A program made the position numbers and the translations under genes. A DNA stretch of 64,000 nt from Candidatus Viadribacter manganicus. GTDB taxonomy: Bacteria; Pseudomonadota; Alphaproteobacteria; Caulobacterales; Aquidulcibacteraceae. Of this stretch, positions 51,809 to 64,000 are shown in pieces. The notes beneath the pieces are model-generated. The model had not been told where the DNA came from. It saw only the letters and a list, made by a program, of their open reading frames with translations, and searched no databases. How positions within the stretch are numbered: the first letter of the stretch is position 1; every line of letters begins with the position of its first letter. The stretch lies in the NCBI RefSeq assembly GCF_001679665.1, contig NZ_CP013244.1, positions 3,593,001 through 3,657,000 of the forward strand, written 5' to 3'.

Positions 51809-51876
51809 TCGTCAGCTGGCGCCATGGCTCCCAGCACTGGTGGCTTCATCACTGGATGAAGATCGCACAATGGTCG

Positions 51877-51955
51877 AATGTCCATTCTCGGCGAGACCGA
51901 GCCGCATTGACGGGCATCGGGTGAGAGGCTGAATTGGAGCGTGCCGGTCGTTTAG
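51877..51955 (+). repeat. Array repeat R1
   Basis: Begins AATGTCCATTCTCGGCGAGA, contains GGCTGAATTGGAGCG, ends GCCGGTCG. It matches R2 and R11 most closely (TTGACGGGCA core). It lies between the hydrolase and the ankyrin gene. Confidence 0.7.
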
Positions 51956-52008
51956 CGATACATGCTCGGCTGGCCGCGGTGTGCAGTAAATGAAGGCTTT
52001 GCTGGTGA

Positions 52009-53073
52009 ATGAGGGGGCGGGGTGGCCAAAGCAAAAAGCAAGCGCTGCCGAAGGATTTCGAAGCACAACTCGAAAAGGGCGACATGCCTGCTCTGAGGGC
52101 TGCGTTCGACAGCTGTGATATCAATGCGCGTGGCGGTGTGTTTAAGCAGACGGCGTTGGCGTTTGCGCAATGTCCTGACGACTTGGCCCGCTGGCTGGTT
52201 CAGCAGGGCGCTGACTTGGCTGCGGGAGACAACTACGGAGACACGCCACTACACTCGCGCTCCCGACACTGGAGAGGACGCATTGAGGTTCTGCTGGAGC
52301 TGGGTGCGGACCCGAATCTGGGTGAAAACTTGAGAGGGACGCCGCTTCACGCGGCGGCCGAGTCCTGCAACGTCGCCAACGCGCGTTTGCTGCTGCAGTA
52401 CGGCGCGCGCGTGGACGCACTCAACCGTGATGGCCAAACGCCGCTTGAATGTGCGCTCCAGCGTTGCAGCAATGCGCAAATCCAAAACATGGCTGCCTTT
52501 GCTGAGCTGCTTATCGCCGCCGGTGCGCGCCGGACTACGGCCATGAAATCGGATGTCACTCGAATTGGAGCAGAGTTCGAATTTCACCGAGGTGGCTTTA
52601 ATCCGTCTTCAGTTCAGTCGACGAGCGACGCGCTAGAGAAATTGTACGCGATCTTCGACGTGCCGGCCGTTGCTCGTCGGGTCGTCCACGACGGCTTGTC
52701 ACCCATCGTATTGCGCAGTGAGCATTGGGAAGATCGTCACCAAGAACTCTGGGAATTGCTCGTTCCATCCAGCGGGCATGCAGACACCGCGCAAGGCGAA
52801 GTTGTTCGCATCGCTGGGCGTATACATGATGAGCTTTATCGCAACGGCGGGATCAACTGGGATCGAGACTATAAGCTGATGGCCGACGCGTTCTTGGAGC
52901 ACGTGGCTTCAGGGATATCCCTCGCGAAGCCTCTGCTTGACGAAACACAAGCACTGGTCACCGCTCTGAAACGCCGAGACGGTGATACCCGCCGCTTATG
53001 TGAACTCGGCGTGATGTGGGTCGCGCTGAACCCCAGCCCTATGAAGCTTAAGCCGCCGGGGTATCGAAGATAA
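52009..53073 (+). CDS. Ankyrin-repeat protein
   Basis: 354 residues. At least four ankyrin-type repeats (LARWLVQQGADLAAGDNYGD, then TPLHSRSRHWRGRIEVLLEL, TPLHAAAESCNVANARLLLQ and TPLECALQRCSNAQ) fill residues about 20-180. The C-terminal half (about 190-350) is mixed helical and not recognised. A GTG 13 bp downstream in another frame begins VAKAKSK and has a better GGGGGCGGG site, so the N-terminus may carry a one-base frameshift. It is the first unit of the repeat-flanked array. Confidence 0.8.
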   Translation: MRGRGGQSKKQALPKDFEAQLEKGDMPALRAAFDSCDINARGGVFKQTALAFAQCPDDLARWLVQQGADLAAGDNYGDTPLHSRSRHWRGRIEVLLELGADPNLGENLRGTPLHAAAESCNVANARLLLQYGARVDALNRDGQTPLECALQRCSNAQIQNMAAFAELLIAAGARRTTAMKSDVTRIGAEFEFHRGGFNPSSVQSTSDALEKLYAIFDVPAVARRVVHDGLSPIVLRSEHWEDRHQELWELLVPSSGHADTAQGEVVRIAGRIHDELYRNGGINWDRDYKLMADAFLEHVASGISLAKPLLDETQALVTALKRRDGDTRRLCELGVMWVALNPSPMKLKPPGYRR

Positions 53074-53078
53074 CACAA

Positions 53079-53163
53079 TCCAGCGTCGCTTTTCGGCGAG
53101 AGCACGCCGAATTGACGGGCAGGGCGCGAGCGGCTTGTTTGGAGCGCGTCAGCCGTTCTGAAA
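53079..53163 (+). repeat. Array repeat R2
   Basis: TCGGCGAGAGCACGCCG, ATTGACGGGCAGGGCG, then GGCTTGTTTGGAGCG. Near R11 in sequence. The stretch 53164-53373 after it shows no gene. Confidence 0.7.
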
Positions 53164-53373
53164 TATTCGCTGTTGGCGCGGGTCTGGCCCGGAAACAGGC
53201 ATTCTGAAATTGGGCTATAGTTCTGGATGGCAGGAGGCCTACTAAGGTACGTGTTGCGCTCACCAATTGAGACCGCCGAGAGAGTAGGCCGGTCGCGGCC
53301 GCGACGCCGCTGGCCAATTGCGGACGGATTGGCGAGCGGCGGCGATGCTACTAAACTTCGACCTTGGTGAGAG

Positions 53374-53913
53374 TTGAAGACCAGAAATTCCACGATTGGC
53401 GCGTTGGCATTGCTTGTGGCGCTCGGCGTAACCGTCGATGCGCACGCGGACGTCATATGGCCTGCACTGGTGACAGCACCACGGCTACTCAGCGTGCCGG
53501 TGCTGATGCTTGGGCTTGTTGTCGAGGCCGCCGCGCTAAAAGCATACTTCCAGCATTCATGGTCCCAAGCAGGAACGCGCGCGCTCATCGTCAATGCATT
53601 GTCCGCACTCCTGGGCACGGTGTTGATCCCGCTCTCCGGTCTGGTGTGGGAGTTTGGTCCAGGGCAACTCGTAAATCGCGCGTTCGACGTTGGAACGTTC
53701 AATCCGGTGAGCTGGGCGGCCACGCTGATTTTCGCCGCAACCATTTCCACGCTCATTGAGGGAGCCACCCTGCAGCGGTTCTTCGCAGTGAAATTCGACA
53801 CACGGCGTTGGCTAATTTGGCTGGCGGCGAACTTTGTTAGCACTGCGGTGGCCGTTGCGAGTGTCTTTCTAAGCTCCGAATTCGACGCGAACTACCGCCC
53901 GTGGCTATTTTGA
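53374..53913 (+). CDS. Exported membrane protein, array unit 2
   Basis: 179 residues starting at a TTG after GGTGAGAG. A signal-like first helix (STIGALALLVALGVTVDAHA) and three to four further hydrophobic helices, ending with LAANFVSTAVAVASVFLSSE. No family recognised. It ends 2 nt before repeat R3 begins, as other units do. Confidence 0.65.
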   Translation: MKTRNSTIGALALLVALGVTVDAHADVIWPALVTAPRLLSVPVLMLGLVVEAAALKAYFQHSWSQAGTRALIVNALSALLGTVLIPLSGLVWEFGPGQLVNRAFDVGTFNPVSWAATLIFAATISTLIEGATLQRFFAVKFDTRRWLIWLAANFVSTAVAVASVFLSSEFDANYRPWLF

Positions 53914-53915
53914 CG

Positions 53916-54000
53916 AATGGCTGCTTCCGGCGAATTTTCCCCGGTGGGATCGGCGGGTCCGGATCGGCAGGTCTTGAGCGATCCAGCCAATCGTAAGAAA
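53916..54000 (+). repeat. Array repeat R3
   Basis: AATGGCTGCTTCCGGCGAAT then GGCAGGTCTTGAGCG and GATCCAGCCAATCGTAAG. The end resembles R5. Confidence 0.65.
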
Positions 54001-54032
54001 AGTGACCAGCCGATTTGGCGGGAGTACGACGC

Positions 54033-54470
54033 ATGGCCGCTTCGGCAATTGATATCAAACCGCGAAGCTGGATGCTGGCGTTATGCTTCGTCGCAATGGC
54101 GGCCGGCGTTGCGTTGATGTTTGTCTTGCCCAATCCGTTTGGCGGGTTGGGCCTGTACGAGCGACCATCGAAAACCCTGTTTTTGTTTTGGGTGCTGGCG
54201 ATCGTGTTGACGCTCGCAGCGGTTTATCGCGTGATTGTGTGGTCGTCCTTCCACATTGTGGATGATGTCTTGGAACGCCGGTTTTGGTCAGGAGTGCACA
54301 GATTTGAACGTGCCGACCTCACGTCGGCACGTATCGAGCGTGCGAAGGGCAGGCCGCGAGTGCTGGTGATGCGCTTCAAGCCGAAGCGAGAGGTGCGCGT
54401 TGCAAGTTGGTTTTTTAGCAGCGCCAACTTTGCGGCGCTGTCTGCGTTCGCCGGAAAGGAAGGGCGCTAA
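54033..54470 (+). CDS. Membrane protein with PH-like C-terminal part, array unit 3
   Basis: 145 residues from the ATG at 54033 (GGGAG upstream). Two membrane helices (SWMLALCFVAMAAGVALMFV and LFLFWVLAIVLTLAAVYRVI) precede a beta-rich segment (IVDDVLERRFWSGVHRFERA, then RPRVLVMRFKPKREV) that resembles a small PH-type domain. No family certain. Confidence 0.6.
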   Translation: MAASAIDIKPRSWMLALCFVAMAAGVALMFVLPNPFGGLGLYERPSKTLFLFWVLAIVLTLAAVYRVIVWSSFHIVDDVLERRFWSGVHRFERADLTSARIERAKGRPRVLVMRFKPKREVRVASWFFSSANFAALSAFAGKEGR

Positions 54471-54572
54471 CGCGCGTGAATGCATTGATGCCTACAATGC
54501 GGGGATTGCGGGCGCGACGATCGGTCTGAATCGCCGGAAGCGCATTCGCCTAAAGTCAGCTTCCATCTTCCA

Positions 54573-54658
54573 GCGACCACTTTCGGCGACAACGCGCCAT
54601 AGCGCGTCGATCGTGATCTACGGCAGGAATTGAGCGCAGCAGCCGTTCAATTTATTTG
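54573..54658 (+). repeat. Array repeat R4
   Basis: TTTCGGCGACAACGCG, then TGATCTACGGCAGGAATTGA and GCGCAGCAGCCG. Closely related to R10. Confidence 0.75.
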
Positions 54659-54724
54659 ATCGGCGGGTTGGCCGTAGCCCAATTGCGGACTTCGGAATTC
54701 GCTAGTTCCTTGTATGTTGGGCGC

Positions 54725-54940
54725 ATGAGCTACCTGAGGCGCATAGGCCGAGGATTCGCGGTTTGGTTGGCCTTCATCCCAGTGATGGTTGTGACGGGTT
54801 TCGTGGCCGAGGCGATACATTTCCCGTGGCTAATTTGGGCTGTTCCAGTTGCGTATTTGATCGTCGCGGTTCGAGTGAGTCGCGAAACCCGACTCCTCGA
54901 AGAGGTCGAACGGCGGAGCAGGAAGTCAGATCACCAGTAA
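54725..54940 (+). CDS. 71-residue membrane protein, array unit 4
   Basis: Starts MSYLRRIGRGFAVWLAFIPV at the ATG at 54725. Two hydrophobic helices (residues about 10-30 and 33-53) and a charged C-terminal tail (RLLEEVERRSRKSDH). Its TAA stop overlaps the beginning of repeat R5. No family recognised. Confidence 0.6.
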   Translation: MSYLRRIGRGFAVWLAFIPVMVVTGFVAEAIHFPWLIWAVPVAYLIVAVRVSRETRLLEEVERRSRKSDHQ

Positions 54941-55025
54941 TGTCCGCACTCGGCGAGATTGAGCCGAAGCGTCCGCAGCATTACCGGCGACACGATTGTA
55001 TCGACCCAGCCCTTCGTAAGAAATG
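54939..55025 (+). repeat. Array repeat R5
   Basis: AATGTCCGCACTCGGCGAGA then a more diverged interior and CCCTTCGTAAGAAATGG. It ends about 40 nt before the leftward ACP-fusion gene stop. Confidence 0.6.
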
Positions 55026-55064
55026 GCGAGCCGGGTATCGCTGGCCCATTGCAGCCGAAGCCGT

Positions 55065-55787
55065 TCAGGCGCGCGCTCGTGCCTTTTCATACTGTGATTG
55101 GAGGATGACAGTGGTCCGCTCGATCTTTTCAGCGGGGAGATTCTCGGAGAAGGCACCGGCGACTTCCACGAGTGCGTCCCAAATCGCCTTTGTATCGGAG
55201 CGACCTCCAAGGCTGACCAATACGCCATAGTTCTGACTCGCTGTCCGTTGGGCAAGATCGCCAACAGTCGCTATCGGTCCGAACGCGAGCGGGTCGAGCC
55301 GGGTAAGGACGAAGCCCGCAGCGGTTAATCCCACAACGAGAGCGAGAACCAGCCAGCCGGTGATCTTCGCAATCAACAAAATTGGCACGCCAAAGATCGC
55401 AGCCGCGATCAGCAACCCACCGAATCCGCTGATATTCGTTTGTGAGAGCGGCGGGAGGCGAAGTTCACAGTGGCGTTGTGCTTGCGCCCACAGCAATTTG
55501 GGCGATCTACCCCAAATAGCGCTCAGAGATGTATCCGGGCGAATATCGACTTCCCCGAGAACCATCTTCAAGGCACGGCGAACTCGATAGAACGCCATTG
55601 AAGTCCTGCACTTCTCTCCGCCGGTGTCTTCCAATTTGGACGCCACGATGTCGTGTAAATCTCCCATCGTGCTGGCGGTGGCGGCGTCTTGATCCGGAAT
55701 CTTGATATTGAAGGCGCGCTCAATCGCTATCAGGAGTTCGACGGAATCCAGGTCATCGTCGAGGCCGAGAGTGTTGGGCGCAACCAT
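55065..55787 (-). CDS. Acyl carrier protein-like domain fused to a membrane domain
   Basis: 240 residues. Residues 7-50 (LGLDDDLDSVELLIAIERAF, then NIKIPDQD) look like a phosphopantetheine-binding carrier domain with attachment Ser15 in DSVEL. The helix before it is short, and an in-frame TAG lies just upstream, so no longer start exists. Residues about 125-165 form a hydrophobic hairpin (GGLLIAAAIFGVPILLIAKI and GWLVLALVVGLTAAGFVL). A soluble tail follows (GDLAQRTASQNYGVLV). A carrier domain tethered to the membrane is unusual. Unit 5 of the array, opposite orientation. Confidence 0.65.
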   Translation of the reverse strand: MVAPNTLGLDDDLDSVELLIAIERAFNIKIPDQDAATASTMGDLHDIVASKLEDTGGEKCRTSMAFYRVRRALKMVLGEVDIRPDTSLSAIWGRSPKLLWAQAQRHCELRLPPLSQTNISGFGGLLIAAAIFGVPILLIAKITGWLVLALVVGLTAAGFVLTRLDPLAFGPIATVGDLAQRTASQNYGVLVSLGGRSDTKAIWDALVEVAGAFSENLPAEKIERTTVILQSQYEKARARA

Positions 55788-55841
55788 GCTGATACTCTAC
55801 CCTGCATTGGTACAGTGTCGAGCAGACCGGCTGACTCGCGA

Positions 55842-55925
55842 AGGGCAAGTTCCGGCGATAGCAGGCCTTAGCGCGTGCAACATTACCGGTGGCAGGAATT
55901 GAGCGACCTAGCCGGTCGCGATTTT
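55842..55925 (+). repeat. Array repeat R6
   Basis: AGTTCCGGCGATA, GGTGGCAGGAATTGAGCG, then GCCGGTCGCG. The gap 55926-56130 shows no gene. Confidence 0.75.
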
Positions 55926-56130
55926 GTACGCGACAGCGGGCGGTGGCCAGGCGCTGCCGCTCCGTGCGCCTCGACTGCGGCCTGGTCTAGGGCGCACGTT
56001 GCGGTCTGTCGCACCGCGCGACTGCGCCATCGATTGCGTGTAGGCCCTGATTGAGAGTGCCGCCTACATCCACTCCGTCCGAGGACGTTTCCTTGCGAAC
56101 CGCGCTCAGGCGCTTGCGGGAGGCTGAAGA

Positions 56131-57162
56131 ATGCGCGTGATTGTTGCTCTATTGTTTGTCGCAGCCTGCGCCACGCCTCTGCATCCCGATCAGCGCGATG
56201 AGCGCAGCTCGTCGGCGATGCAATCGCTCATAAGCCAAGGGTTCACGGGCTCGGTTTTGGTAGCTTGCGGCGACGATATTTTGTTCGCCGGTGACTACGG
56301 TCTGTCCGACTCGCACGGTCGCGAACCCAGCTACTGGCTCGCTTCAATCAGCAAGCAATTCACCGCGACCGCAGTGCTAAAGCTTGTGGAGGCGGGTCGC
56401 ATGACCCTGAACGATCCGGTGTCGCGCTATTTTCCCGATGCACCGCCTGACAAGGCCCCCATCACAATCCAACAGTTGCTGACGCATCAGTCAGGGCTGA
56501 CGCAGGTGTACACTGCGGACGGCATCGTCGATCGCAACGAAGCAGTGCGCGCGATCCTGGGGACGCAACTCGCTTCTTCCCCGGGGGCGACATTTCGCTA
56601 TTCTAATGACAATTACACGCTGCTCGCCGCGATCGTTGAAATCGTTTCCGGTGAACGTTTCGAGGATTTCGTGCGCGCAAACGTGTTCTTGCCAGCGGGC
56701 ATGCGGAACGCGGGATTTTGGCCTGACGTGGGAGAGAGTTTTTCGCCTCCGGTGCTGAGCATGCCGGTGGGCGCTATGGCGGAGCCCAATTGGGGGTTTC
56801 GCGGTGGCACAGGGATGCGTGCTTCCGTGCGTGATCTTCATCGATGGACGCGCGCACTGGATGAAGGACGCGTGCTGCGCCGCGAGAGCGTGGCGCTCTT
56901 ATATGGCCCACACCTCACCGCGTCTGATGGCGATGGCGTGGGCTTTGGGTGGTTTTCGTCGAACTCGGCGGATGGGCGTTTGCTTTGGACACGTGGCAGC
57001 GAAGACTACGGCCCTAACGTCATATTGTATCGACGCACCGGGACACCGCTGACGATCATCGCGGCCACCAACGCTGGCCCGGCGGAGGCAGACGGGCCAG
57101 GCTGGTCGCGCCGAGCGCGCGACGCGCTCATGCCAATCTTCGACGCCGCAGCGTGCAATTGA
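56131..57162 (+). CDS. Serine hydrolase, beta-lactamase class C-like lipoprotein
   Basis: 343 residues. N-terminal lipobox (IVALLFVAAC, Cys13). SISK (72-75) is the SxxK motif in SYWLASISKQFTATA, YSN lies in FRYSNDNYTLLAAI, and a late region (GSEDYGPNVI) replaces the third motif. This is the beta-lactamase/penicillin-binding protein class C fold, probably a D-aminopeptidase or esterase rather than a resistance enzyme. Array unit 6. Confidence 0.88.
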   Translation: MRVIVALLFVAACATPLHPDQRDERSSSAMQSLISQGFTGSVLVACGDDILFAGDYGLSDSHGREPSYWLASISKQFTATAVLKLVEAGRMTLNDPVSRYFPDAPPDKAPITIQQLLTHQSGLTQVYTADGIVDRNEAVRAILGTQLASSPGATFRYSNDNYTLLAAIVEIVSGERFEDFVRANVFLPAGMRNAGFWPDVGESFSPPVLSMPVGAMAEPNWGFRGGTGMRASVRDLHRWTRALDEGRVLRRESVALLYGPHLTASDGDGVGFGWFSSNSADGRLLWTRGSEDYGPNVILYRRTGTPLTIIAATNAGPAEADGPGWSRRARDALMPIFDAAACN

Positions 57163-57177
57163 CGTAGCGCACCTAAC

Positions 57178-57262
57178 CAACGGCAACTTCCGGCGAAACC
57201 GAGCCGTTGCTAGGCGCGCCAAGCGACTGACTGCAATCGAGAGAGTACGCCACTCGCGAAAA
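57178..57262 (+). repeat. Array repeat R7
   Basis: CTTCCGGCGAAACCGAGCCG then a diverged interior and ACTCGCGAAAATCGGC. Weakest member with R5. A 9-bp GC hairpin (GGGCCCGGC / GCCGGGCCC at 57320-57341) without a T-run follows. Confidence 0.5.
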
Positions 57263-57407
57263 TCGGCGGGATGACCTGCGCCGGTCCTAACTGAGCCTAC
57301 ACGCTCGGGGGCAACTGTTGGGCCCGGCCGGCGCCGGGCCCGCTCTCGCTTTCAAAAAGCTATCTCTCACGCTCTAAGGGGCGATGCAGCGTGAGCGGCA
57401 ATCGCGC

Positions 57408-57845
57408 CTAATCCTGAATGCCCTGCAATGAAGTTTCGGCTCGCTGCAAAATGGTGTGGCGGGCGTCGAGCGATCTTGCTCCCGTGCTTACGCCGCAAGC
57501 GGGGGCACCCGCCCATACGACTCCGTTGTATTCAGCAGATGGGAATTGGCGTTCATAAAAATTCACTAAACCCTCGCAGCGAATATACTCGCGCATGGCG
57601 TTCTTGACGCCCGCAAGGCGATTGCGTGTTGCTGTGAGTTCTAATCGCGCCTGAGCCAATTCGGTTCTGGTTTGGTTGTGAGCAGACTCTAATTGCTGCA
57701 ATCGCGTCTGCAGCAAGGCGACGTCCGCGGCGCTGGCAGGCGCGACCGTCAAGTTGCCTTGCGGCGGCCGTATGGTCTGTGCCACCGCGGCCCCCCCGAT
57801 GACCACCGCAATGGCGCCAAAAGCCAGAAACTTGCCAACATGCAT
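57408..57845 (-). CDS. Exported coiled-coil protein, array unit 7
   Basis: 145 residues from the ATG at 57845, with AGGAGG upstream. Signal peptide (FLAFGAIAVVIGGAAVAQ), a Leu/Ala/Gln heptad stretch (DVALLQTRLQQLESAHNQT and onward, about residues 40-80), and a C-terminal part with two Cys (YIRCEGLVNFY and GAPACGVSTG). Periplasmic. No family recognised. Confidence 0.65.
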   Translation of the reverse strand: MHVGKFLAFGAIAVVIGGAAVAQTIRPPQGNLTVAPASAADVALLQTRLQQLESAHNQTRTELAQARLELTATRNRLAGVKNAMREYIRCEGLVNFYERQFPSAEYNGVVWAGAPACGVSTGARSLDARHTILQRAETSLQGIQD

Positions 57846-58045
57846 TGAACTACCTCCTGTAACTCCGCGCGCAGACATTACAGCTCTGATAGAGGAGGGG
57901 GCAACGCCGGGTGCGATCTTTGTTGCCAATCACTACGGCTGCGAGCATGCGAGCCGTTTGTGTACGGTAAGGTCGAAGAAACTGTGAACCACGCCGGGGA
58001 TCGGTCGCTTCCCAGCTAGATTGATGCACCCGCGAATGGCTGTTG

Positions 58046-58144
58046 TCGGCGCATGTGAGCCGTCCACGCGAGCAGGGCGCAGCCGGCAGGAATTGAGCGA
58101 GTTGGTCGGTCGCGAAAATCGTCGCTACGGCCTACGATGGCCCA
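58046..58144 (+). repeat. Array repeat R8, near-identical to R12
   Basis: 99 bp with only two differences from R12 at 60404-60502. Contains GGCAGGAATTGAGCGAG and GGTCGGTCGCG. It begins about 200 bp upstream of the leftward coiled-coil gene start. Confidence 0.85.
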
Positions 58145-58168
58145 AACCGGACATTCAGTGCACCGGGT

Positions 58169-58324
58169 TCATTTCCGCCTCGAAGCGAGTGCCAATGCAT
58201 GGATGAAAGCACCCGCACCAACCAGGTAGATCATCCAGGTTGCGTCGAATGCGGACGAGGCAAAGCCCACTACCACCAGCGCGGCTGACCAACCCAAAAA
58301 CCAAATGGCTGCGTTCCGGCTCAT
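58169..58324 (-). CDS. 51-residue membrane protein, array unit 8
   Basis: A short gene starting MSRNAAIWFLGWSAALVVVG. Two hydrophobic helices (residues about 6-22 and 29-47) and a basic end (ASRRK). It fills the whole space between repeats R8 and R9, which supports it as a real unit. No family recognised. Confidence 0.6.
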   Translation of the reverse strand: MSRNAAIWFLGWSAALVVVGFASSAFDATWMIYLVGAGAFIHALALASRRK

Positions 58325-58348
58325 TGTCTTGAGACTTAGCACAACTGT

Positions 58349-58436
58349 TCAATGACCGCTCCCGGCGATCGTAAGCCGTTCACGTGGGTGGGGCGCAAGC
58401 GGCAGCAATTGAGCGAGTGAGCCGGTCGCAGAATTT
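58349..58436 (+). repeat. Array repeat R9
   Basis: AATGACCGCTCCCGGCGATC, then GGCAGCAATTGAGCGAG and GCCGGTCGCAG. Interior close to R8 and R12. Confidence 0.75.
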
Positions 58437-58523
58437 TGCTCGACGACCCACGTTGGCTCTTTGCGGACGTTGCGCTCGGCGGCGGCGAACGACACACTGC
58501 AATTTCGCATTCAGGACAGGACC

Positions 58524-58766
58524 ATGGATCGAGCAACGGCAAAGGCCATCGCTGTGGCCGCGCTCCGCAGCGCAGCCGAAATCAACAACCTCGTTCCATT
58601 GCTCAAGGCGACCTGTCCAGAGCCGGAATACGAGGCATGGCGGGATAGAATCGCCGAAGCGTCGATGCTGGTGACTCAAGGTTTGCTCCCGGCAGTATTT
58701 GCGGAGCACGCCGACCTTGAGGCGGAGTTGGACGATCATTACCAGCGATTTGGTCGGCCCGCCTAA
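58524..58766 (+). CDS. 80-residue protein, array unit 9
   Basis: Starts MDRATAKAIAVAALRSAAEI at the ATG at 58524 (AGGA upstream). Helical, acidic at the end (ADLEAELDDHYQRF). No family recognised. Its stop TAA overlaps the first bases of repeat R10. Confidence 0.6.
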   Translation: MDRATAKAIAVAALRSAAEINNLVPLLKATCPEPEYEAWRDRIAEASMLVTQGLLPAVFAEHADLEAELDDHYQRFGRPA

Positions 58767-58857
58767 CGTCCGTTGTCGGCGACATCACGCCGTAGCGTGT
58801 CGAATGTAATCTACGGCACGAATTGAGCGCGGCGGTCATTCGAGTAATTTGTTGGGT
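58761..58857 (+). repeat. Array repeat R10
   Basis: GTTGTCGGCGACATCACGCC, then GGCACGAATTGAGCGCGGCG. It alone is bounded by GCCTAAC (58761-58767) and GTTGGGT (58851-58857), which match the integron attC end boxes RYYYAAC and GTTRRRY and can pair with two wobbles. Confidence 0.75.
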
Positions 58858-58931
58858 GAGCGGGCAGTGGAAGCGGACGTGCGCTAGAGCCTGATTAGAT
58901 TTAGGTCAGCCAGAGCAGTGCGACCTCGGGG

Positions 58932-59447
58932 GTGAACTTGAACGGATTTGGGGCTTGGCTTCCCGGCTGGCGGCATTTCTTTTCATGGAAAGGCCGGATC
59001 GGGCGGCGCACGTTTTTCGGCGGCTACGTCGCGCTGTGCTTTATCAGCGGAGCAGTTGGGATGCTCGTGCTCGGGCCGCTAATGCTGTCGAGTTCGACGA
59101 GCTTCGAGACGATCAACGCGATAGGCTTCATTCTGATCGGCGCTGGATTCATCCCCTTGTCGGCACTTTTCGCGCAAAGGGTACATGACCTCGGATGGTC
59201 CGCGTTCATCCCACTGGTCCTCTTCGCTATTCTCGCAGCGCCGATGTTCGCTCTGATGGATTTTGGGTCCGGCGTGTTCGGCTATGCGCTGGCGCGCGCC
59301 GCGCACTCGGTCGGATTGGACATGGCAGGCTTGTTTCCGATTGTGATGATCGGAAACGGCCTTTGGATGCTGTTTGCAATCTTTGTGATCGCCCGTAAGG
59401 GCAAAGCGGAAGCCAACCGCTTTGGTCCACCTCCCGCGTTGGCCTAA
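58932..59447 (+). CDS. DUF805 membrane protein, array unit 10
   Basis: 171 residues from a GTG (a TTG lies 6 nt later). FFSWKGRIGRRTFFGGYVAL is the DUF805 opening, and RVHDLGWSAFIPLVLFAILA the central motif. Four hydrophobic helices are seen. DUF805 proteins are small inner-membrane proteins of unknown function. Its TAA overlaps the start of repeat R11. Confidence 0.88.
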   Translation: MNLNGFGAWLPGWRHFFSWKGRIGRRTFFGGYVALCFISGAVGMLVLGPLMLSSSTSFETINAIGFILIGAGFIPLSALFAQRVHDLGWSAFIPLVLFAILAAPMFALMDFGSGVFGYALARAAHSVGLDMAGLFPIVMIGNGLWMLFAIFVIARKGKAEANRFGPPPALA

Positions 59448-59519
59448 TGGCCGCTCTCGGCGAGAGCGCGCCGGATTGACGGGCAGGGCGTCAACGGCTC
59501 GATTGGAGCGTTGTTGCCC
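59446..59519 (+). repeat. Array repeat R11
   Basis: AATGGCCGCTCTCGGCGAGA, then ATTGACGGGCAGGGCG and GGCTCGATTGGAGCG. It carries the hairpin CTCTC-GGC-GAGAG and ends 2 nt before the parE stop. Confidence 0.8.
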
Positions 59520-59521
59520 GA

Positions 59522-59860
59522 TCAAACATCTTCGCGTGGTAGGTGGCGCGAAAGCTCCATACCGTCATGGAGGACGCGCTGAATCTTCACCTCTTCCTCG
59601 GTCTCCGAGTACAGAAGGAAATGGCGTCCGCGGCGGCCGCGCTTGCGCATATGCAGGGTTCGCATGCCCTTTGCGACCTCATCGCGCGCAAGACTTCTCG
59701 AAGGGGAGTTCTGCGCCGTCAGTTCATCAATCGTATCAACGATCGCCTCAATATAGCTCTCGGCCTGAGAGGGGCCAAAATTGTCGGTGGTCCAGGCTGC
59801 AATATTGTCGAGATCGGCTTGTGCGGCCGCTGCCAAGGAGACGATTCGTTTTCCGCGCAT
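59522..59860 (-). CDS. parE: RelE/ParE-family toxin
   Basis: 112 residues. LAAAAQADLDNIAAWTTDNF, a helical middle (AESYIEAIVDTIDELTA), RSLARDEVAKGMRTL and the C-terminal strand (HFLLYSETEEEVKIQRVLHD) follow the ParE/RelE toxin fold. ParE toxins poison DNA gyrase; RelE-type ones cleave mRNA. The start overlaps the parD stop as TAATG. Array unit 11, with its own promoter. Confidence 0.9.
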   Translation of the reverse strand: MRGKRIVSLAAAAQADLDNIAAWTTDNFGPSQAESYIEAIVDTIDELTAQNSPSRSLARDEVAKGMRTLHMRKRGRRGRHFLLYSETEEEVKIQRVLHDGMELSRHLPREDV

Positions 59861-60150
59861 TAGCCACGCTTGGTCTTGGCGATGACCTTTGCGGCACGCG
59901 AACGCAAGTGTTTGCGCATTTCACTGGAGTCCGAGAAGGTGGCGAAACGGCCAGCGTCAAAATCAGCCATACCGATGCGCGCCGCCTCGCGCAGCGCAGC
60001 CAATTTCGCGGCGTCTTCGGCTTCGCGCTGTTCTATGAGGCGCAGCCCTTCGCGCATCACTTCACTTGCGTTTTGATACCGCCCAGTCTCAACCAGAGTA
60101 TCAATGAGTTCGTCCTGGCGTTCTGTGAGTACGACGTTGCGCGTGGACAT
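59860..60150 (-). CDS. parD: ParD-family antitoxin
   Basis: 96 residues from the ATG at 60150. VVLTERQDELIDTLVETGRY and QNASEVMREGLRLIEQRE form the ribbon-helix-helix start of ParD/CC2985-type antitoxins; the tail binds the toxin. It represses its own promoter, where a palindrome overlaps the -10 box. Confidence 0.92.
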   Translation of the reverse strand: MSTRNVVLTERQDELIDTLVETGRYQNASEVMREGLRLIEQREAEDAAKLAALREAARIGMADFDAGRFATFSDSSEMRKHLRSRAAKVIAKTKRG

Positions 60151-60163
60151 GGTAGAATCTCCG

Positions 60164-60196
60164 ATGGCATAATATGCCATAGGGTGAATTAGTCAA
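60164..60196 (-). promoter_or_regulatory. parDE promoter with palindromic operator
   Basis: Leftward: -35 TTGACT (60196-60191), 16-nt spacer, -10 TATTAT (60174-60169). The palindrome ATGGCATA-A-TATGCCAT (60164-60180) covers the -10 box, fitting autorepression by ParD. The remainder of 60197-60403 shows no gene. Confidence 0.7.
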
Positions 60197-60403
60197 TATC
60201 CGGGGTGAACGGAATTGCATGTCCTTGCGGTCGTTCTGGCGCGTTACTGGATGTCGGCGTCGACTTCGCCTCGTGTCAGACGCGCTTCCGACTCCTGCCC
60301 AAGCCCAAGTTCCGTCCAAGGCGCGCCATGTCTCGACCCCGAAGGTGACAGAGAAAGTGTGACGAACGCCGACTTGGCGTTTTGAATCCACGAGTGACGC
60401 ATT

Positions 60404-60502
60404 TCGGCGAATGTGAGCCGTCCACGCGAGCAGGGCGCAGCCGGCAGGAATTGAGCGAGTTGGTCGGTCGCGGAAATCGTCGCTACGGCCTACGATGGCC
60501 CA
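60404..60502 (+). repeat. Array repeat R12
   Basis: 99 bp, 97 identical to R8 (58046-58144). Contains TTTCGGCGAATGTGAGCCG just at its start and GGCAGGAATTGAGCGAG inside. Confidence 0.85.
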
Positions 60503-60561
60503 TTGCTGTCACTCGACACGATGAAGCGGGATGGTAGGCTTGGGGCGTCCGGGGGGACGCC

Positions 60562-63345
60562 ATGGTCGAGACCGAAGCCGCCACGAACCCGAGCGAACGC
60601 CTCAAGGTGTTCGTATCATATTCGCGCACCGACCTCGATTTCGCCGACCAACTCGTGCTCGCGCTGGAAGACAAGGGCTTCGAGGCCCTCGTCGATCGCC
60701 ATGACATCGACGCCGCCGAGAAATGGAAAGATCGCCTCGGTACGCTAATCGCCTCGTGTGACACCGTCGTGTTCGTGCTGTCGGAGAAATCGGCCGGCTC
60801 TCCCATCTGCGCCTGGGAAGTGGAAGAGGCCGCGCTGCTCGGCAAGCGCATCATCCCCGTCGTGCCGCACGATCCCGCTGGGGTCGCGCCGCCGCCGCAA
60901 TTGGGCGAACTCAACTACATCCATTTCTTTAGGCACCCGAACGTGCCGGGTTCGGGCTTTTATGACGGCGTCCAAAAACTCGATCGCGCGCTGCGCGTCA
61001 ATCTTGGCTGGTTGCGCCGTCAAACGGCCTATGCTGAGCGCGCCGACGAATGGCGCGCGCAAACTGGCGCCGCACGGCGGCCTGAAGATCACTTGCTGCG
61101 TGCGAGCGCACTTGAGGAAGCGGAAGCTTGGCTTGCAAGCGCTCCAAAAAACGCAACGGTGTCGCCGCTCGTGCGTGAGTATATTGTCGCATCGCAAGAA
61201 GCTGAGACGCGTCGCAAGGCCGAGACTGCCGCCAACATTGCCGAACGTGAGCGCGCCCTGAAGACCGCGCGGATAGCGACGCTGATCGGCGGCGGCGTCG
61301 CCTTTGCGCTGATCGTTCTCGCGGTCGGCCTGTCCGCAATGGCGGTGACCGCTTCGCGTGAAGCCGGCCGGAACCGCGCCGCTGTGTTCGCCGGCGAAGC
61401 TGAAGCACGCATGGGCCAAGCAAAATATGCCGAAGCCATGTTGATGGCGTTGGGCGGGGATCCCGCTGGCGCGCGCAACCAGATCGCGACGCTCGATTTT
61501 TCCGGCGCCGGCTATCCGGCGGCCAGCTCGGCGCTGGCGCTGGCCATGACCCAGAATCGCTTCGTGCGGCTCTTTCCGGACTATTCGCAAGGCGACGGCA
61601 TCGAGGCAGTGTTCTCGCCAGATGATACAAAAATTCTCACCTACCCGGAGGGCAACGGCGACAGCGCCAGTGACGAAGCGCGTATTTTCACGATCGAGGG
61701 CCGCGAACTGGGCCGCCTCGCTTTGGGAGAGGCTTTCGATGTCGCCACCGTGCCGGGGCCGGGCTGGCGCATTTTGGTCGCGTCGCGGACGGGCGTGCGT
61801 TTGTGGGACGTCGAGGCGCGGCGACAACTCGGCGTGTTGTCGACCACCTATACCCATTCAGTGACTGTTTCTGCCGACGGCCGCCGCGCTCTCACATTTG
61901 GCGATGACTCGATGGAGGTCTGGGATATTCAAACCTCGGTGTTGGTGAGATCCTTTCCCGGTGCAGTTTGGACCGGAGGCGAACTCTCCGGCGACGGCAG
62001 CCAGATTTTGATGTCGACACCGCAAGAAGCGACTCTACGAAATGTCGATACGGGCCAGATCACAGACACGATAGCGACTTACTCCACCAATGCCTTGGCG
62101 CTGTCTTCTGGTGGCGAGCGAGTGCTTGTCGCCAGCATTGAACGAAGAAGAGTGTTTCTAGGGGACCGCAATTCTACGCCGCGCACCTTCACCGCGGAAG
62201 TCGAAGACGCGCACTTTTTAGGCGACGGGCGTGTTTTGCTCGGCCTTTTTAGCAGCGGCAGGGTCGCGCTGTGGACGCCCCAGTCGGGTGCGAGTGAAGA
62301 GTTCAGCGTCGCCGCCGTAAGCGCCTGGCCACTCGTGGTGTCTCACAATGGACGCCATGCGCTCGCGCATGGAAGTCAAGGTTTGCTTCTGTTGAACCTT
62401 GAGCCCAGAGCGCCCGACGTTATTGATCCGCGCGCACGACGCATTGACTACGGTTGGAGCAGTGATAACGGCCGCAATTATGGAAGCGCTGTTTTCTCCG
62501 GCGATGGCGCTCGCTTGTGGGTTAGAAGCGCTGAGGGCTCCAGGGTGCAAAACGCCGAAACCGGCGCGCTTGCCTATGCCCTCGAAGGAACGACCCTCGC
62601 TGCCTTTTCCGCTGACGGTCGCAGGATAGTGACGTTATCCGGGGAGCGCACGATCGTTCTGAGGGACGCCGCAGACGGACGGCAACTGAATTCCGTACAA
62701 GTCCCAGACCAGGTCACTACGCTCGCATTCGCGGGAGATGATGTTCTCATCGGCTCGCAGTTTGTGCGATCGTGGCGTCCGGTCACAGGCCGGCTAGAAC
62801 AATTGCTCAACAGCGAAACCTACGTGCGTTCGATGGCGTTCCAGCCTGAGCGTAATCTTCTGCTCGCTGGCACGGACGCCGGCGCTCAACTGTGGGATCT
62901 TCGCTCACGCAATCGGCTGCACCTTCTTGCACCCGGTGCGGAAATAGGTGCGGTCGCGCTCTCAAGGGACGGACGATTGGCCGCGACGGCAGACCATTCT
63001 TGGGACTCATGGACACCTACTGAAGGCCGCACCTGGAAAATCGTGTTGTGGGATTTGGCGAGCGGTCGTCGACTTCAAGTGTTTGGGCTGCCGCCAGCCG
63101 GCATATATCCGCCGAGGCCGGTCTCCCTCGCAATCTCGGGGGATCGCCTAATGGCGGGAATGTCGAATGGGGCCGCTCTGTCTTTCGCTCTTCATCCAAT
63201 CGTGTGGGAGGATGCGCCGACGCGGGTCCGTATGGCCTGCGCCACTTTGCGCGCTCTTGGCATGACTGAGTACACGGTGGAGGATTTGCAGCGTTTTCCC
63301 ATCCTACAAAACGAGGCGCGCAATCCCTGTTCTGCCGTGCACTAA
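60562..63345 (+). CDS. TIR domain - transmembrane - WD40 protein, array unit 12
   Basis: 927 residues. The TIR domain is residues about 14-150: KVFVSYSRTDLDFADQLVLA, then VVFVLSEKSAGSPICAWEVE, where Glu86 fits the NADase catalytic position. A helical linker (about 155-235) leads to one membrane helix (238-262). A long beta-propeller of about twelve WD40-type blades (about 300-895) follows, and the end NPCSAVH. TIR domains cleave NAD or signal in immunity. The propeller probably senses or scaffolds. Its placement in the array and the TIR-like neighbour suggest a defence role, not proven. Confidence 0.85.
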   Translation: MVETEAATNPSERLKVFVSYSRTDLDFADQLVLALEDKGFEALVDRHDIDAAEKWKDRLGTLIASCDTVVFVLSEKSAGSPICAWEVEEAALLGKRIIPVVPHDPAGVAPPPQLGELNYIHFFRHPNVPGSGFYDGVQKLDRALRVNLGWLRRQTAYAERADEWRAQTGAARRPEDHLLRASALEEAEAWLASAPKNATVSPLVREYIVASQEAETRRKAETAANIAERERALKTARIATLIGGGVAFALIVLAVGLSAMAVTASREAGRNRAAVFAGEAEARMGQAKYAEAMLMALGGDPAGARNQIATLDFSGAGYPAASSALALAMTQNRFVRLFPDYSQGDGIEAVFSPDDTKILTYPEGNGDSASDEARIFTIEGRELGRLALGEAFDVATVPGPGWRILVASRTGVRLWDVEARRQLGVLSTTYTHSVTVSADGRRALTFGDDSMEVWDIQTSVLVRSFPGAVWTGGELSGDGSQILMSTPQEATLRNVDTGQITDTIATYSTNALALSSGGERVLVASIERRRVFLGDRNSTPRTFTAEVEDAHFLGDGRVLLGLFSSGRVALWTPQSGASEEFSVAAVSAWPLVVSHNGRHALAHGSQGLLLLNLEPRAPDVIDPRARRIDYGWSSDNGRNYGSAVFSGDGARLWVRSAEGSRVQNAETGALAYALEGTTLAAFSADGRRIVTLSGERTIVLRDAADGRQLNSVQVPDQVTTLAFAGDDVLIGSQFVRSWRPVTGRLEQLLNSETYVRSMAFQPERNLLLAGTDAGAQLWDLRSRNRLHLLAPGAEIGAVALSRDGRLAATADHSWDSWTPTEGRTWKIVLWDLASGRRLQVFGLPPAGIYPPRPVSLAISGDRLMAGMSNGAALSFALHPIVWEDAPTRVRMACATLRALGMTEYTVEDLQRFPILQNEARNPCSAVH

Positions 63346-63410
63346 TGTCCGCCTTCGGCGAACTCGCGCCGCTTCGCTGCATCGCAACCGAGCGGCTGGT
63401 CTTGGGCTAA
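63344..63410 (+). repeat. Array repeat R13
   Basis: Starts at the stop codon of the TIR gene: AATGTCCGCCTTCGGCGAAC then a shorter, diverged interior. Confidence 0.55.
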
Positions 63411-63487
63411 CTTGCCGCTCAGCGTTTTTTCTTGACCGAGTGCCTACGCGGCGCGACCACTTCAAAAAAGGGTTAATGGAGGTGGTG

Positions 63488-64000
63488 ATGGCGGACAAAG
63501 GCGTGGACCCGCAATTCGCGTATTGGAAGCCAGGGTCAGAAGAGCGTTACATTCGCATATTCATGAGCCATCGCTGGGGGCAAGACCGCGAGCTATACGA
63601 GCAGGTTCTAGCTAAGCTTCGCAGCCAAGGTCACTGCATCGATGATGTCTCTCTGAACGAGCGGCAGCAGATTGCTGGGCCTCGTGGTGGTGATGTGCCC
63701 GACCTCAATGTTCAAGCCGAGGTGGCGGCGAGGATATTCACGGCGGACATTGTGATTGTCGCCAGCAGACCGGGGATAACCCGTTCCGAATGGGTGATGT
63801 GGGAGCTCCGCGTCGCCGCAATCGGGTACGCAGTTCCAATCTTGTTTTTGGACTTTGATAATCAACAGCGACGCGCTGCCATTGTAACCGAAATCGCCGG
63901 GTTGGGATTACAGCATGATGTATGTCAGCCCGTAGTCACGGAGATTGTCCCGCGCGTGATCAAGCTTGTAGGCGGCCGGCCCAAGTGGGGCATGCGTCTT
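63488..64000 (+). CDS. TIR-like protein (MTH538/ThsB type), 3' end outside window
   Basis: 171 residues are in the window. The ATG at 63488 has GGAGG five nt upstream; an in-frame ATG at 63476 is an alternative. RYIRIFMSHRWGQDRELYEQ, IDDVSLNERQQ, then TADIVIVASRPGITRSEWVM and WELRVAAIGYAVPILFLDFD show the MTH538 TIR-like order, with a Trp-Glu (Glu106) in the place of the conserved acid. This family includes the Thoeris sensor ThsB. It is the second TIR-type gene in a row and the last unit visible in the array. Confidence 0.7.
   Translation, partial: MADKGVDPQFAYWKPGSEERYIRIFMSHRWGQDRELYEQVLAKLRSQGHCIDDVSLNERQQIAGPRGGDVPDLNVQAEVAARIFTADIVIVASRPGITRSEWVMWELRVAAIGYAVPILFLDFDNQQRRAAIVTEIAGLGLQHDVCQPVVTEIVPRVIKLVGGRPKWGMRL

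Follow-up and report, generated by a model that had tools for sequence, protein, structure and literature searches.

From position 51874 to the end of a 64,000-nucleotide stretch of the chromosome of Candidatus Viadribacter manganicus, an uncultured alphaproteobacterium, thirteen similar repeats alternate with single genes or toxin–antitoxin (TA) pairs. This stretch, the window, corresponds to chromosome positions 3593001-3657000 of a genome consisting of one contig of 3.73 Mb, and its own numbering is used below unless a coordinate is called chromosomal. The locus raises the question of whether an array laid out like an integron is one and, if not, what moves its genes. Integrons are the best-known platform for storing and shuffling hundreds of single-gene cassettes. 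The array described here is not an integron, nor is it a cluster of attC sites lacking an integron integrase (CALIN). It probably belongs to a set of mobile gene-cassette arrays that resemble integrons in their working and are made of unrelated parts, with a small tyrosine recombinase as the enzyme.

The repeats, termed R1 to R13, are homologous sites of about 100 bp that all lie on the plus strand, as the sequence-only reading of this DNA had held. Their own profile retrieves them with nhmmer at 52-71 bits (E 3e-21 to 3e-15), which is so by construction; the lack of any further site in the window, where the next best match reaches 7.9 bits, is not. Mean column identity among them is 59%. A site starts with a 12-bp left arm (consensus AATGNCNGNTTT), followed by the box YCGGCGA and then by a conserved part containing GCCG, CGGCNGGAATTGAGCG, GCCNNTCG and often TGGCCCATTGCGGACATT. 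The box had been described as YCGGCG(A) near the start of the repeats, and its CGGCG core is indeed present in 13 of 13 sites, the final A being replaced by C in R8. The exchange box is close to the 5' end of the site, and the bulk of the site opens the cassette. The same reading counted exactly one gene or TA operon in each of the twelve intervals. This stands for eleven; the 316-bp interval between R8 and R9 is doubtful, its sole content being a 65-aa open reading frame (ORF) without a Pfam match. The array continues past the window, with R14 located 126 bp beyond its end at chromosome positions 3657126-3657217 (L010:4126-4217).

Further copies are present both in the rest of the genome and in relatives. 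On the chromosome, a sequence-only model built from 50 sites of this genome found at least 100 matches at E≤0.01, a lower bound because 150 of 4163 first-look candidates were scored. The repeats are not spread evenly between ordinary genes: 99 of the 100 matches fall into four arrays, located at 54.8-71.3 kb (5 sites, plus strand), 1439.8-1564.6 kb (the largest, with 63 sites, 62 of them on the minus strand), 3383.3-3422.8 kb (17 sites, plus) and 3644.9-3657.2 kb (the window's own, 14 sites, plus). The remaining match is a weak outlier at 1862.2 kb. When a box was counted only if the profile match starts before it and it has at most one mismatch, all other matches being dropped, 340 distinct boxes were placed in 51 array stretches of 11 genomes, none of which mixes directions. 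Among 251 intervals of at most 2.5 kb, 210 hold an ORF, the longest of which is on the site strand in 125. With genes in both orientations, the cassettes are unlikely to share a promoter, and each is expected to carry its own.

Within the family, 36 of 60 genomes match the site profile at 0.001, with counts per genome capped at 69. Sites occur in 27 of the 30 genomes of the genus, V. manganicus included and several with a single match, as well as in 9 of the 30 family genomes outside the genus. At the level of the order, 41 of 299 genomes match at 1e-5, including seven from a second family, in which the matches are weaker. When a collection of species genomes was scanned for the exact pattern, 32 stretches were returned; 26 belong to records named Hyphomonadaceae or Alphaproteobacteria, and 22 of 23 re-examined stretches of this group match the profile. 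The other one (L137), like single stretches from Nocardioides and Rugosimonospora and two from Lysobacter, has no profile match at E≤1, and these were taken as chance. A Bdellovibrionaceae stretch from the scan reaches a profile E of 0.045. One contig binned as Burkholderiales ends in a strong site (59 bits; L148:1996-2083), which points to contamination or transfer. Viral contigs yielded no exact match to the site pattern and no relative of the small recombinase.

Repeated cassettes reveal where the units begin and end. The cassette between R5 and R6 (54951-55858) recurs at chromosome positions 71263-72171 with 99.6% identity, and the sequences outside both boxes are wholly different. The cassette between R2 and R3 (53093-53933) recurs in the large array near 1.56 Mb, where it is 100% identical apart from an internal deletion of about 170 bp. 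In this copy, a single N at chromosome position 1558979 (L025:18979) divides two overlapping partial copies, one with the left box end and the other with the right. The two are probably unmerged contig ends, in which case the one-contig genome was scaffolded inside its largest array.

The junction count covers alignments within one of the 11 genomes or between two of them that reach 200 bp and 85% identity; shorter or weaker ones were dropped, as were two alignments with the stretch beside the N. In the resulting 45 alignments (21 within genomes and 24 between genomes), 19 of the 83 usable ends lie no more than 3 bp from a box, compared with an expectation of 0.87 and a maximum of 7 over 500 random shifts of the boxes. 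Both ends are at boxes in six alignments, two of which are between species (expected 0.01, maximum 2). Comparisons between genomes contribute 8 of 41 ends and two alignments with both ends, and with the N-flanking copy included the totals are 23 of 87 ends and eight alignments. Unit order is not identical in related species, as shared units have different neighbours within as well as between species. At the level of sequence, the units, their ends, their movement and their single direction are demonstrated. Because duplicated and shared cassettes end exactly at the YCGGCGA box, the units appear to move by site-specific recombination at this point.

Genes could also be shuffled by ordinary homologous recombination between copies of a repeat-rich intergenic element, such as a miniature inverted-repeat transposable element (MITE) or a repetitive extragenic palindromic (REP) sequence. 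The left and right arms do pair better than shuffled sequence, which reveals inverted ends of the form AATGTCCGC ... GCGGACATT at the level of the consensus only. However, the ends fall on the same six bases, a preference that homologous recombination between repeats of only about 60% identity is not expected to show. As the strict co-orientation and clustering of the sites speak against it as well, this explanation is very improbable.

The layout itself is that of an integron: one-gene units between co-oriented sites, exchange of units, and a cargo of TA pairs and orphan genes. The sequence-only reading accordingly considered a CALIN or drifted attC sites, and a true integron that has lost its former IntI would look similar. 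In addition, R10 (58763-58859) carries both attC end boxes, RYYYAAC and GTTRRRY, in place. It had been singled out in the window for this, and it is also the only one of 336 sites from the 11 genomes to do so (none of 1680 shuffled sequences has both). The sites are slightly more structured than controls and far from attC. In 150 sites drawn at random from the 336, the mean hairpin z is -0.63 on the given strand and -0.61 on the other, compared with -0.17 for control windows 270-400 nt before the box and -3.9 for the aadA1 attC of plasmid R100; values below -2 are reached by 13% of the sites and 4% of the control windows. Twelve of the window sites were folded (R2 left out), of which two score -3.4 and -2.5 and ten range from -1.8 to 1.5. 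A conserved fold is not apparent either. RNAalifold returned seven pairs on 13 sites and three on 50, none with two-sided changes; mutual information over 70 sites gave few pairs, all in the variable middle; and no covariation of the arms was seen, either inside single repeats (p 0.67) or inside single cassettes (p 0.38). The cassette boundary lies inside YCGGCGA and not inside GTTRRRY. The window had been described as having no integron integrase, which is confirmed, and none exceeds the cut-off of the IntI model (TIGR02249) in the whole genome, the best match scoring 79 bits against a required 265. As far as tested, the integron explanation is refuted, and drift from attC is extremely improbable.

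The alternative that the same reading had left, a separate kind of cassette system served by a recombinase of its own, holds as far as the cassette system is concerned; a recombinase can be proposed on circumstantial grounds. The candidate is a single-domain tyrosine recombinase of about 200-225 aa. A 225-aa copy lies in the 3.38-3.42 Mb array (chromosome 3421522-3422196, minus strand; PF00589, E 3.9e-20), a remnant lies in the large array (1519024-1519281), and a copy with 98% identity is found in an array of genome G052. In the alignment, R76 and K104 are nearly invariant, H173 and R176 (H-x-x-R) are invariant, and a tyrosine is present in all rows that reach the C-terminus; we take these to be the catalytic residues. 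XerA and XerC models match best in NCBIfam, a tyrosine DNA invertase model matches weakly, and the nearest solved structures are Xer recombinases. An AlphaFold model reached a mean predicted local distance difference test score of 49.7 and was not used.

Copies of about 75% identity or more are referred to as class a. At 1e-15, 9 of the 60 family genomes contain this class, every one of them belonging to the 36 that have sites; it is also present in three second-family genomes. All 15 class-a copies that share a stretch with sites, fragments included, are antisense to them (16 of 16 with a remnant of 56% identity); another three lie in fetched stretches where the profile finds no site. In 9 of 13 class-a flanks, a CGGCGA box is found 71-73 nt past the stop codon (L089, L105, L091, L171 with the 56% remnant, L169 and L111, as well as L203, L204 and L205, the three from the second family). 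Behind this box, GCC is found at the usual distance, followed by what looks by eye like a terminator-type inverted repeat; two of the three copies from the second family have another hairpin sequence, with box and spacing unchanged. The shortened site, consisting of the arm, the box and about 12 bp, may be a half site of the attI type. Among 16 homologues of lower similarity, one of them truncated, not one has the box at this distance past its stop codon. Arrays of several genomes share cargo of various kinds, along with an insertion-sequence transposase, phage-type integrases and the small recombinase; of these genes, only the last recurs with a box. Being the most recurrent recombinase inside the arrays, having the half site and spreading with the sites in two families, class a is preferred as the proposed enzyme of the system, on circumstantial evidence from sequence.

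Several relatives of this protein show other arrangements. Distant homologues in site-bearing stretches (L169, L184, L194 and L202) point the same way as those sites, opposite to class a. Near the stop codons of distant small recombinases in L190, L191 and L193, from family genus g2, AATGTCTGCTT arms are combined with another following sequence, and an inverted repeat lies between the two; this arrangement may indicate a sister system with another box. A plasmid of Roseomonas mucosa (L217; NZ_CP025190.1, 94813-103388) has two copies of a related small recombinase together with a RelE/ParE-type toxin. The copies share a 974-bp stretch at 92% identity and lie around other single genes, which may be another cassette-like arrangement that uses a different site.

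A number of observations weigh against the movement of cassettes at the box by the class-a enzyme. As many as 64 of the 83 alignment ends lie away from any box; among these are ends due to incomplete conservation, to insertion sequences, to internal tandem repeats and to uncalled boxes. Two ends fall in the 3' part of a repeat and may mark a second point of exchange that is used less often. Symmetry of the arms about the box is moderate (rank 4 of 176 centres), and one partial site in the large array (1531050-1531095) is oriented opposite to the rest. As regards the enzyme, four flanks have no box at 71-73 nt (L088, L090, L114 and L087, the last belonging to the intact copy of V. manganicus itself). 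Class a is present in only 6 of the 14 genomes with at least 20 sites. Of the eight others, six have no member of the recombinase family at 1e-15 and two have distant homologues only, so that many arrays would lack their enzyme, in the manner of CALINs. Moreover, the constant spacing between recombinase and box could reflect the inheritance of one recombinase-bearing cassette, in which case the gene would be cargo.

If so, the same cassettes might be moved by the host XerC and XerD or by a plasmid or phage enzyme. In favour of this are the array-rich genomes without class a. Judged by score and length, moreover, the only tyrosine recombinases that recur in all eight array-rich genomes searched look like two Xer-type proteins, the first matching at 5.8e-41 to 3.1e-39 and the second at 1.1e-35 to 8.0e-32. 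A precedent exists in the dif modules of Acinetobacter, which are moved by XerCD. The single site direction throughout the arrays does not fit this explanation, nor do the antisense orientation of class a in every such copy and the special half site in most of them; the sites also show no evident likeness to dif, although no search aimed at that motif was made. Movement by XerC and XerD or by another borrowed enzyme is unlikely.

Another candidate is a pair of PRK01287-type tyrosine recombinases, 73% identical to each other, at chromosome 61.2 and 67.3 kb (L017:1217-2230 and L017:7283-8350). Both are followed by a site in the same direction, 108 or 99 nt behind the stop codon, and the spacer is partly conserved. 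Among relatives, copies lie 2.3 kb (G045, opposite direction) and 3.3 kb (G036:C140, same direction) from the next site, a further point to be held against class a. However, none of four relatives' copies has a site in the fetched flanks of up to 1.5 kb, their directions vary, and the type is present in only 4 of the 60 family genomes, which makes it a quite improbable enzyme. By eye, the DNA before each of the two genes resembles, on the other strand, the end of a rearrangement hot spot (RHS) core.

Two other groups were set aside. Serine recombinases (PF00239) are absent from G000 and G052 and show no pattern when nine array-rich genomes are compared with six array-poor ones. A 292-aa tyrosine recombinase beside two arrays of G052, in an integrase-like position, was rejected because it belongs to a 2.5-kb stretch present in copies of 99.9% identity (L078:5793-7868 and L081:2628-4703), together with a 396-aa protein that is presumably an IS91-type transposase.

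With class a as the proposed enzyme, the arrays might work as follows. A unit consists of the box YCGGCGA, about 90 bp of conserved site, a gene or TA pair, a 12-bp arm and then the next box. The small recombinase would pair two boxes and swap strands within the 6-bp box (6-7 bp), and excision would release a circle composed of box, site, gene and arm. The circle would insert at another box, preferably at the half site of the recombinase itself, whose left arm would become the final 12 bp of the newest cassette. The candidate enzyme gene sits inside the arrays, antisense to the sites and behind the half site and its terminator-like hairpin, and the half site would act as an attI-like entry. 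The window array contains no gene of this kind; its enzyme would come in trans from the intact copy at chromosome positions 3421522-3422196.

Like sedentary chromosomal integrons and CALINs, these arrays are long, have one gene per cassette, co-oriented sites and TA cargo, and their cassettes are duplicated and exchanged; like integrons, they also include a tyrosine recombinase with a possible attachment site alongside. Unlike integrons, they have no IntI, no R' and R'' boxes and no conserved hairpin; the crossover lies in YCGGCGA, most of the site is at the cassette start, and the candidate enzyme has a single domain, is encoded within the arrays and is transcribed toward the half site. The XerCD dif (pdif) modules of Acinetobacter similarly place genes, often TA pairs, between sites of tyrosine recombinases. 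The sites described here differ in being about 100 bp long, running in one direction per stretch, and being chromosomal and at least 100 in number in one genome; a dif-like motif was not noticed in them, although no search for one was made. The recombinase belongs to the same family as small plasmid proteins of about 200 aa named 'tyrosine-type recombinase/integrase', with homologues in 439 plasmid records at 1e-20. Unlike most class-a copies, the six plasmid homologues examined show no YCGGCGA box over the 200 nt behind the stop codon.

Integrons are very rare in Alphaproteobacteria: the IntegronFinder 2.0 paper (PMC9024848) gives six complete integrons for the class. A description of arrays such as these was not found among the titles and abstracts listed in searches of an open-licence library, which covers neither subscription papers nor preprints. 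The arrays look like a second, unrelated way of collecting and shuffling genes. We regard it as about an even question, leaning slightly to doubt, whether they represent a second capture system on the scale of superintegrons, independent of integrons and typical of Alphaproteobacteria of the Hyphomonadaceae type, with a single-domain recombinase that travels as a cassette in its own arrays and recombines double-stranded YCGGCGA sites, and with cassettes that each bring a 5' leader in place of a shared promoter. If so, cassette capture would have arisen more than once, a clade nearly empty of integrons would have its own cassette stores, and toxin, defence and orphan genes carried on cassettes would become accessible that attC-based tools would miss.

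The window array opens with R1 (51874-51972, box from 51889), which is followed by a gene for an ankyrin-repeat protein of 354 aa (52009-53073, plus strand, identified by Pfam). R2 (53079-53173, box from 53094) is the left end of the cassette copied at 1.56 Mb; the gene of this cassette encodes a 179-aa protein with no Pfam family (53374-53913, plus), and the deletion in its copy lies within the cassette. Behind R3 (53913-53999, box from 53928) lies a gene for a 151-aa protein with a DUF998 match below the cut-off (54015-54470, plus), and behind R4 (54569-54666, box from 54584) a 94-aa ORF of no family (54656-54940, plus). R5 (54938-55035, box from 54951) forms the left end of the duplicated cassette, whose gene encodes a 240-aa protein with a weak phosphopantetheine-attachment match below the cut-off (55065-55787, minus). 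The right end of this cassette, 55858, is the last base of the box of R6 (55839-55936, box from 55853).

R6 is followed by a gene for a beta-lactamase-family protein of 343 aa (56131-57162, plus; PF00144), and R7 (57176-57274) by one for a 173-aa protein with a coiled-coil family match below the cut-off (57408-57929, minus). The 65-aa ORF of the doubtful interval (58155-58352, minus) lies between R8 (58033-58131) and R9 (58350-58447). A 101-aa protein of no family (58461-58766, plus) is encoded between R9 and R10, and a DUF805 protein of 171 aa (58932-59447, plus) between R10 and R11 (59444-59537). The next cassette, at 59522-60180 on the minus strand, holds a ParE toxin gene (59522-59860) and a ParD antitoxin gene (59860-60180), both identified by Pfam. 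R12 (60390-60489) precedes a gene (60562-63345, plus) that encodes a 927-aa defence-like protein with a TIR domain and a WD40-type propeller. PADLOC gave this protein a weak ThsB-type similarity, making it a defence candidate that rides as a cassette. R13 (63341-63439) is followed by a 221-aa ORF (63440-64000, plus) that is cut by the end of the window, with R14 as the next site.

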